Assembly: GCF_000379805.1 (NCBI RefSeq)
Contig: NZ_KB903541.1
Location: 144,267-182,616 of the forward strand
Reading direction: 5' to 3'
Source of the DNA: Lewinella cohaerens DSM 23179
Lineage (GTDB): Bacteria > Bacteroidota > Bacteroidia > Chitinophagales > Saprospiraceae
DNA length: 38,350 bases
The notes under the pieces were generated by a model. That model ran no database searches, had not been told where the DNA came from, and saw only the letters and a list, made by a program, of their open reading frames with translations. Shown here piece by piece: positions 3,930 to 28,830 of the stretch (within the stretch, counting starts at the first letter, position 1; each line of letters opens with the position of its first letter). The translations under genes and the position numbers were made by a program.

Positions 3930-3960
3930 TTTGAAATAAAAACAAAAATGTCTATATTTG
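3930..3960 (+). promoter_or_regulatory. Bacteroidota-type promoter of element A
   Basis: TTTG at 3930-3933, a 19-nt spacer and TATATTTG at 3953-3960 match the Bacteroidota primary sigma consensus (-33 TTTG/TTG, -7 TAnnTTTG). The nearest gene starts 340 nt downstream, so the promoter would drive the structured element at 3961-4149, either as a free RNA or as a very long leader. Confidence 0.6.
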
Positions 3961-4149
3961 CGATGGAATTATTCCCTATCATAGGTAAGTACCCCCATTT
4001 CTTGGGGCATTCAGAGGTATAAGTTTGGATATTGCGCGGCACTCGCTTCAGTGAGTGCATAAAGTACTATGGCTATGCCCCATGGTTTTGGGGATGGTCG
4101 ACGGCGACTGAGGCCTGGGTGGGTTGACCCTCCAGGGTCCGCCGATAAC
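3941..4149 (+). repeat. Structured element copy A (putative ncRNA or non-autonomous element)
   Basis: This 209-bp block recurs in inverted orientation at 28622-28830 with about a dozen substitutions and one 1-nt indel; the last 55 nt (4095-4149) are identical. Predicted hairpins are CCCCA 3993-3997 with TGGGG 4003-4007, and GCACTC 4039-4044 with GAGTGC 4053-4058. A third is CCCCA 4078-4082 with TGGGG 4089-4093. The fourth is compound: GGCGAC 4103-4108 with GTCCGCC 4137-4143, CCTGG 4114-4118 with CCAGG 4132-4136, and GGG 4121-4123 with CCC 4128-4130. Changes in copy B keep the second hairpin through G.U pairs. No reading frame is conserved. No T-run follows, so the 3' end is unknown. It does not look like tmRNA, RNase P or SRP RNA. 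Confidence 0.6.
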
Positions 4150-4221
4150 GCTGCCTCCGATGAAAATTCACCATCATCAGAACTATCTCACTCTACAAAG
4201 GTTAACAAGTAACAATTCTCG

Positions 4222-27210: not shown

Positions 27211-27338
27211 CTGGAAAAAGGTATATTCGCAAAATCTAATTTATGCCTCTTATGAATTTTCTTGCACTAGCTCCTTGTAGTCCCCAGACTACAAGGATAT
27301 ATCCCACTGGCCTCCCGACCAGCAGGTTGGATGCAGAG

Positions 27339-27407
27339 ATGCGCTGCATCAAAACTGCCGTGGCGACGCGCTGCATCAAAAGAACCTTGGCGACGCGACG
27401 CATCGTG
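27339..27407 (+). repeat. 27-bp tandem repeat at the start of the nuclease/phosphatase gene
   Basis: Units at 27339-27365, 27366-27392 and a partial third at 27393-27407. All carry [AT][CT]GCG[CA][TC]GCATC, followed in the first two by AAAA. Twenty-seven is a multiple of three, so the repeats stay in frame and encode nine-residue units: MRCIKTAVA, TRCIKRTLA, TRRIV. The core GACGCG...GCATC resembles dispersed intergenic repeats seen in Bacteroidota genomes (from general knowledge). Confidence 0.7.
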
Positions 27408-28217
27408 TCTCTACTATTGGTATTCAATGGCCTTCTCTTTGTTATGCAGGCGCAGGAATTCACCTTACTTACCTGGAATATCCAGAACCTGGGCCAAAGC
27501 AAAGATGAAGTCGAAATCCGCAACATAGCAGAGGTCATCAATGAATTTGACCTTGTTGCAGTACAGGAGGTCGTCGCTAAAGATCCCCGCGGAGCACAAG
27601 CCGTAGCCCGACTCGCAGACGAACTCAACCGGATGGGCGACCGCTGGGACTATCGGGTTAGTAATCCTACACGTAGCCCTTCTGCCCATATCAGCGAACG
27701 CTACGCTTTCCTTTGGCGATCTTCCAAAATACAGTTGGTCGGCCGCCCTTATTTGGATAGCGAACTGGCAGATGAATGCGACCGAGAACCCTATCTGGGG
27801 CAGTTTCGATTAAAAGCTGGGGGTGCTCCTTTTTATATTGTAAATGTTCATGCCCGTACCCACGATAAGCAACCAGAAAAGGAGATTGCCCATTTCGAAT
27901 CCTATCAAAAACGTTTAGCTACAGAGTTGGTATTCTTGGCTGGAGATTTCAATCTTACGGAAGATCATCCCGTTTGGATGTCCTTCTATGAGGTGGGGTA
28001 TCAACCTTCCATATCTGATATGGCGACAACCCTCAAGAGGAAATGTGCCCGTGGCAATTACCTGAATCATTCTATTGATAATATCTACTACGATGAGGAC
28101 GTGGTCGAACTTTCCCGTTCGGGCCGGGTAGATTTTGTAAGAGACTGTGAGCTACTAGAGGAGAGAAGAGGACTGTCCGACCATTTACCTGTTTTTTTAG
28201 CGTGTAGTATCAGGTAG
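27339..28217 (+). CDS. Secreted endonuclease/exonuclease/phosphatase (EEP) family protein
   Basis: The EEP fold motifs are all present: LLTWNIQNLG (Asn), DLVAVQEV (catalytic Glu), VNVHARTHDK, GDFNLTEDHP (Asp and Asn), and the terminal SDHLPVFLAC (Asp-His pair). Such enzymes are Mg-dependent phosphodiesterases, including DNase I-like nucleases and lipid phosphatases; the substrate is not evident. A signal peptide (VSLLLVFNGLLFVMQA, cleavage before QEF) suggests export, with an unusually long basic leader encoded by the 27-bp repeat. I chose the ATG at 27339 (about 292 residues). The frame is open from an ATG at 27243, which would add 32 residues without export character, and a GTG at 27405 is possible too. 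The N-terminal boundary is therefore uncertain; the enzyme domain is not. Confidence 0.88.
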   Translation: MRCIKTAVATRCIKRTLATRRIVSLLLVFNGLLFVMQAQEFTLLTWNIQNLGQSKDEVEIRNIAEVINEFDLVAVQEVVAKDPRGAQAVARLADELNRMGDRWDYRVSNPTRSPSAHISERYAFLWRSSKIQLVGRPYLDSELADECDREPYLGQFRLKAGGAPFYIVNVHARTHDKQPEKEIAHFESYQKRLATELVFLAGDFNLTEDHPVWMSFYEVGYQPSISDMATTLKRKCARGNYLNHSIDNIYYDEDVVELSRSGRVDFVRDCELLEERRGLSDHLPVFLACSIR

Positions 28218-28374: not shown

Positions 28375-28621
28375 AGAGGCTTCTCTCTTTTTGATGCGTT
28401 TGCCCTGGTTCCCATATTATTTTGCTGGCCAAGGACCTTGCGTAGCAGAATTTCCACTGAGTGGTTAGAATTGGCGGAGCTTTGTGGCTAGATACCTAAT
28501 TGATTTGCTGCAAAATGGGGTGCAAATAAGGGAGAGAACACTTGAAAAATGTAAACTTTAGGAGGCTAGATTCTACCAGAGGAATGTTGAGAATAGGCTC
28601 TAAAAATGAATGCGGGCCATA

Positions 28622-28830
28622 GTTATCGGCGGACCCTGGAGGGTCAACCCACCCAGGCCTCAGTCGCCGTCGACCACTTCCCAAACCATGGGGCATGGCC
28701 ATAGTACTTTATGCACTCACCGAAGCAAGTGCCACGCAATATCCAAACTTATACCTCTGAATGCCCCAAGAAATGGGGGTAGTTACCTATGATGGGGAAT
28801 AATTCCGATGCAAATATAGTATTTTTGTTT
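28622..28830 (-). repeat. Structured element copy B (inverted relative to copy A)
   Basis: Read on the minus strand this is the same block as 3941-4149, with about a dozen substitutions. The compound GGCGAC...GTCCGCC hairpin and its flank are unchanged. In the middle hairpin, C-to-T and A-to-G changes keep pairing as G.U. The third hairpin is weakened to CCCA/TGGG. The ATG that opens a 19-codon frame in copy A is TCG here. No gene follows downstream on the minus strand (the EEP gene is convergent), so this copy is not a leader. This favours a stand-alone RNA or a mobile repeat. Confidence 0.6.
28811..28818 (-). promoter_or_regulatory. -7 box of element copy B
   Basis: Minus strand TATATTTG, identical to the -7 box of copy A, with the conserved AAACAAAAAT just upstream (28821-28830). 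The -33 TTTG seen in copy A is not conserved here, so this copy may be weaker or silent. Confidence 0.45.

Follow-up and report, generated by a model that had tools for sequence, protein, structure and literature searches.

The nearest published kind to the RNAs described here is the FopS/GibS family of Bacteroides thetaiotaomicron, which comprises 14 paralogous sRNAs that have their own promoters and act on susC-like mRNAs (PMC11697453). The present family, from the same phylum, is likewise multi-copy and mostly intergenic, and both appear to use canonical housekeeping promoters, in our case as judged by motif only. Compared by description, FopS/GibS has 14 members and a base-pairing seed, whereas here there are 19 to 40 matches per genome, of about 190-240 nt, with many covarying hairpins and a loop-loop contact. 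Another point of reference is given by GOLLD, ROOL and OLE. These are also bacterial RNAs with elaborate folds of unclear role (PMC12286853), but the family studied here has no Rfam match and many copies per genome. 6S RNA (RF00013) resembles the family in being free-standing, structured and of similar length. A 6S-like RNA had been considered in the preliminary description of this DNA and was rejected, since RF00013 matched nothing in the genome even at E 10 and the RNA folds as a chain of hairpins instead of the one long rod of 6S RNA; in 14 control genomes the same model found matches in 8, above the cut-off in 4. HEARO/IscB omega-RNAs are structured, present in many copies and often without an adjacent protein gene; the family departs from them in having no Rfam match, no guide-like segment by eye and its own -7 box at a near-fixed place. 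To our knowledge, most bacterial structured RNAs occur in one or few copies. In the open-licence literature on paralogous or multicopy sRNAs, Saprospiraceae RNAs, kissing-loop or candidate structured RNAs and GOLLD/HEARO/ROOL, none of the entries listed (for two of the topics the first 15 of 1,983 and the first 10 of 242) describes this family, as judged by title and beginning of abstract.

The first two copies lie in a stretch of 38,350 nt from Lewinella cohaerens DSM 23179 (contig NZ_KB903541.1), hereafter the window. Copy A (positions 3965-4152, plus strand, the core used in the models) and copy B (28619-28806, minus strand) were placed by BLAST and covariance models, belong to what we call subfamily I and are 93% identical. 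BLAST of positions 3930-4160 against the same genome returned the self match, the inverted copy (93% over positions 6-220 of the query, E 1e-85) and, on another contig, a third one (78%). Two other genomes of the genus contained three and two similar copies, respectively. The -7 box TATATTTG, of a type common in the family, is directly upstream of both A (3953-3960, plus strand) and B (28811-28818, minus strand), and the final 55 nt, up to GATAAC, are the same. Thus, the inverted match, the shared box and the identical last 55 nt, as previously noted, were all borne out by BLAST and by the sequence of both copies. The preliminary description had the element present twice, which holds for the window, but it overlooked that the genome as a whole contains 32 matches, these two included. 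A possible -33 element of copy A, TTTG, is found at 3930-3933 (plus strand), 19 nt before the -7 box, in line with the consensus TTTG-N19-21-TAnnTTTG. Copy B and the next sizeable ORF (27243-28217, plus strand) are convergent, and therefore this copy has no close downstream gene on its own strand, in agreement with the earlier observation.

In what follows, G000 is the genome of the window and G001, G002 (a single contig) and G003 are the other genomes of the genus. A covariance model built from eight copies (R1: A, B, the third copy and the three and two from the sister genomes) found ten more matches, divergent yet full-length, all in the same genus. Seven of these ten were used for a second model, R2, which at E<=1 had 32, 10, 19 and 35 matches in G000, G001, G002 and G003, respectively; 91 of these 96 make up our set of loci with flanks. 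From the 91, 57 copies were hand-picked for an alignment (A5) and a third model (R3), which exclude all of subfamily I as well as the majority of the near-identical copies of G003 and numerous fragments, but keep the 5'-truncated L142 and L143. At E<=0.1, R3 gave 32, 27, 19 and 40 matches in the same order, some of them fragments, mainly in G003. E-values were at or below 1.4e-13 for all 32 matches in G000, at or below 4e-12 for all 19 in G002 and below 1e-6 for 36 of the 40 in G003. Inspection of three of the four weaker G003 matches (C31:87368 being the one outside it) indicated that L247 and L248 look like real fragments and L238 like a chance match. The 17 weakest of the 27 G001 matches (E 3.6e-6 to 0.055) were counted as real because all of them carry either GGG[TA]GGG (15 matches) or the form GGGGCGGG (the other two). 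A subfamily of G001 (L221-L233 and L243-L246), many members of which have a longer 5' region and in which helix P3 is GGATT/AATCC, is at the limit of what R3 detects; the true copy numbers of G001 and of other genera may therefore be higher.

Among 298 Saprospiraceae genomes (112 genera), R1 matched only the four genomes of the genus. R2, run over 395 genomes of the phylum, matched the genome of the window and four others (E 7e-4 to 8e-3); these four are about what chance would give for 395 genomes at E<=0.01, and the one that was aligned shows little of the family. With R3, the 298 genomes gave the four of the genus and weak matches in four others, of which those in G243, G027 and G042 were rejected for being without the GGG(U/A)GGG end; the fourth, in G115, is the only one that merits further attention. 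A Gammaproteobacteria contig (L193) that matches a short pattern was also attributed to chance. The covariance-model search proposed in the preliminary description thus returned strong covariation, copies throughout the genus and at most weak matches in the remainder of the 298 family and 395 phylum genomes. Distant relatives elsewhere could be missed, since the wide searches were more strictly filtered and much of the G001 set reaches only 17-30 bits with R3. Two other repeats were seen along the way. G115, from another genus of the Saprospiraceae, has an element of about 160 bp in two copies 82% identical (L239, L240), which ends in GGGTTGGGTCCCTCCC and a hairpin like those of the RNA family and shares a 16-base identity with L107 and L143; its 5' part differs, and it may be a distant relative. 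In G243, a 90-base sequence with GCGAAGCGAG blocks occurs twice in direct orientation at a distance of 539 bases (L197), and is apparently unrelated to the RNA family.

The elements of the fold follow one another as P1, the linker AUCAUmGGUA, P2, AUUCAgcGG with a U-run, P3 around P3a, P4, GGCGAUCnGGC, GGG(U/A)GGG and P6. In copy A (plus strand), the 5' hairpin P1, which is short in subfamily I, is assigned to 3965-3975 from its covariation in other subfamilies, while P2 (3993-4007) and P4 (4071-4099) are assigned by covariation. Between these two helices are a linker, CATTCAGAGG, recognized by its conservation in the alignment (4008-4017), and P3a (4039-4058), with 99.8% of its cells paired in the 57-row alignment. 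The GGGTGGG motif (4117-4123) precedes the terminal hairpin P6, GACCC-TCCA-GGGTC (4126-4139), defined by comparison of hairpins across copies; in copy B the motif was located at 28648-28654 (minus strand) from the sequence and the same comparison. Among the 91 copies, 84 have GGG[TA]{1,2}GGG, and in 83 of these 84 a CCC comes within 4 nt after it, so that pairing of the CCC with the GGG may be an alternative to P6.

A seven-row alignment already showed two-sided changes in 13 of 47 pairs, against 7.2 in shuffles. In the 57 rows of A5 they were present in 46 of 53 pairs (594 cells against 172), counts that lean toward the model structure because A5 was fitted to it, and the covariation score was 0.531 against 0.200 when shuffled and at most 0.090 when slid. 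In a ranking of column pairs that made no use of the structure, the first 17 places all fall within the proposed helices. The sequence of P6 varies widely with its pairing kept (GCCCT/GGGGC, CCCTC/GAGGG, CCCGC/GCGGG, CCCCCAAC/GTTGGGGG, GACCC/GGGTC), partly by construction, as the best hairpin per copy was chosen for this comparison. The hairpins and compensatory changes of the preliminary description are therefore real; the two copies on which it relied are insufficient as proof, which is supplied by the wider family. Folding of single sequences did not significantly surpass that of shuffles (z -1.54, -0.69 and -1.87). Unpaired columns are about as conserved as paired ones (0.69 and 0.67). From sequence comparison, it can be taken as established that the family is one of conserved, structured, multi-copy RNA genes under purifying selection.

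Covariation also supports a kissing contact between GAC(N) in the P1 loop and (N)GUC in the P2 loop. At its fourth position, which is variable, 38 of the 55 copies that could be parsed have a Watson-Crick pair, against 16.2 expected and a level that none of 20,000 shuffles reached, and all four pair types occur there; the 36 unparsed copies of the 91 include subfamily I and G003 copies with GCC in the P2 loop. The score is lowered by the fact that in some rows, such as L094, the script took a GAC of the stem and not that of the loop. Copies A and B, like the rest of subfamily I, are without the GAC/GUC loops, and in one group of G003 many copies lose one of the kissing pairs through a GCC in the P2 loop.

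Each copy seems to be equipped with its own promoter. A -7 box of the form TAnnTT(T/G/A)(G/A/C) was found within -40 to +12 in 74 of the 80 untruncated copies (11 truncated ones of the 91 being omitted), against 31.0 expected from base shuffles, and 56 of these boxes start at -13 to -17, a near-fixed distance before the first hairpin. With regard to gene context, the RNA is followed by a same-strand gene at 53 loci and by an opposite-strand gene at 34, with none available at 4, counting overlapping ORFs; when these are left aside the figures are 50, 36 and 5. Some of the same-strand genes begin within 70-180 nt. By simple ORF calling, an ORF of at least 90 aa overlaps the RNA at 31 of the 91 loci and one of at least 150 aa at 9; 7 of these 9 are same-strand downstream ORFs of uncertain start position, and two orthologous copies, L102 and L139, have a frame that stays open across the entire RNA. 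Most copies thus appear intergenic by this calling, and some may overlap the start of the downstream gene. The proteins encoded downstream at 20 loci of G000 have no common theme by eye, and Pfam assigned families, all of ordinary kinds, to six of ten proteins of the window. Only one tRNA was adjacent among 32 loci.

Rfam 15 gave no match at gathering score in the whole window nor in 20 of the 91 loci, and at relaxed E-values there were either no matches up to E 1 or only chance-level ones, to microRNA and plant-virus models for example. With 32 copies, covariation and this null result, the earlier suggestion of a multi-copy structured RNA that is not simply a leader and belongs to no recognised class is strongly supported. 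As to possible protein partners, Hfq was found in 0 of 60 genomes tested. TROVE/Ro proteins are present in 5 of the 60, namely G000, G002 and three genomes of other genera, and TROVE/Ro was rejected as a partner by co-occurrence, since only two of the four genomes of the genus have it (G001 and G003 do not).

Comparison of G000 with G002 indicates that the copies are mostly old residents of their sites. Sixteen of the 19 G002 copies, including the inverted pair of the window, are at places matched in G000: 15 pairs share, within 3 kb, flanking genes that agree in side and strand (supported by three or more ORFs in 13 pairs, by two in one and by a single ORF in one), and L119 is the sixteenth. 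In 13 of these pairs (L119, which was found late, and the two in which one partner is truncated being omitted), mean identity is 0.85 for the RNA, 0.70 for the 50 nt upstream and 0.62 for positions +10 to +110 downstream, and the RNA is better conserved than the downstream stretch in 12 of the 13, L104 being the exception. Some copies have been reduced or lost. The G002 partners of L107 and L098, which are L143 and L142, are without the 5' half, while the G000 copies themselves are complete. At the G002 site of L120 only a 3' remnant persists, and the absence is therefore attributed to deletion, while L121 has no trace at the aligned place. Other sequence is found in G002 at the sites of L113 and L114, and no region matching that of L122 was found in the G002 stretches compared. 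Truncated copies with the 5' half gone and the 3' domain kept (L142, L143, L170, L176, L179, L206) were seen repeatedly, to which detection bias of the models may contribute.

G003 has undergone a burst of similar copies. In ten of them picked for comparison, mean identity is 94% in the core from ACTCATCGG to P6, 80% in the promoter and 77% in P1, and 62% in the 50 nt downstream of P6. G003 also contains a repeated element, inverted at its ends (CAGGGCTGTCGAATC...), that interrupts RNA copies at or near the motif GGGTGGGCCCC (L150, L173, L174, L181, L236, L237 at its left end; L248 and L180 at its right end). Junctions of different interrupted copies suggest, by eye, a duplication of about 10 bases. 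This element resembles an insertion sequence with a preference for this RNA gene, with no transposase identified.

According to these data, A and B are probably genes that belong to an extensive and rapidly diversifying family of structured RNAs, free-standing and about 190-240 nt long, that would act in trans, probably as ribonucleoproteins; this is the explanation we lean toward, with reservations. A FopS-like family of base-pairing sRNAs, in which unpaired seeds bind the start regions of mRNAs and the copies differ mainly in promoter control, is less likely and still deserves some weight. It has a precedent in the phylum, the 14-member paralogous family with its own sigma-ABfr promoters (PMC11697453), and conserved unpaired segments do exist in the present RNAs. 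However, for the one segment searched (AUUCAGCGGUUU / AUUCAGCGG, one mismatch allowed), complementary sites in the genome are hardly in excess (73, compared with 52 when the segment was reversed as a control; the RNA copies themselves account for 13 of the 73), and the covarying fold seems more elaborate than a seed sRNA would need. A guide or scaffold RNA of an RNA-guided effector, akin to omega-RNA or HEARO, is highly improbable: HEARO does include structured RNAs that occur in many copies without a protein gene beside them, but the loci searched have no Rfam match at gathering score and the aligned copies have, by eye, no unpaired hypervariable segment of guide length.

The dispersed copies, the burst in G003, the 5'-deleted copies and the traceless L121 could also be accounted for by a non-autonomous mobile or selfish element, with RNA structure kept for its own spread, as the preliminary description had offered among its possibilities. 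We regard this as improbable, because 16 of 19 G002 copies hold G000-matched places, which leaves recent movement unsupported, and one of the absent copies left a 3' remnant. Moreover, inspection by eye of 22 burst copies in alignment revealed neither terminal inverted repeats nor target duplications; phage records had no match for copy A or L091, plasmid records none for L091 or L158, and viral contigs none for two sequence patterns. The promoter is also inside the repeat, and copying at the RNA level would lose it. An older spread of the family at the DNA level may have taken place. As for a cis-acting leader, riboswitch or attenuator, with GGGUGGG and P6 as parts of mutually exclusive hairpins, the same-strand next genes (53 of 91, some of them close) and the CCC that trails the motif would permit it, but the opposite-strand genes at 34 of 91 loci, copy B among them, the unrelated downstream functions of the 20 loci read by eye and the RNA's own -7 box make it very unlikely. 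Interpretation as 6S RNA, as a cis-leader or as a recently mobile element is disfavoured.

If the RNAs are indeed free-standing and trans-acting, each copy would be transcribed from its own -7 box promoter, and the fold would display the conserved unpaired segments AUCAUmGG, AUUCAgcGG with its U-run, GGCGAUCnGGC and GGGUGGG to a protein or RNA partner. The family might then set the dose and timing of a ribonucleoprotein or titrate its partner. Such a role is favoured over base pairing because much of the variation is in helices that keep their pairing, no guide-like variable segment is apparent by eye and, for the one segment searched, complementary sites are hardly in excess; the preference is mild, since conservation differs little between unpaired and paired columns.

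As judged from sequence, the finding is real and larger than first noted: each genome examined in one genus has dozens of genes for ornate RNAs. So many divergent paralogs that show strong compensatory evolution, so far in a single genus, are unusual, and they provide natural mutational data in sufficient depth for a fold to be derived from sequence alone. We put forward only tentatively that this is a new class of bacterial RNA, a large and fast-evolving paralogous family with one fold that serves as scaffold of an RNA-protein or RNA-RNA assembly. If so, its copy number would be nearer to the snRNA and snoRNA repertoire, as generally understood, than to that of the bacterial sRNA families known to us. 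The question raised for the biology of these organisms is which protein or process needs some 30 versions of one RNA.
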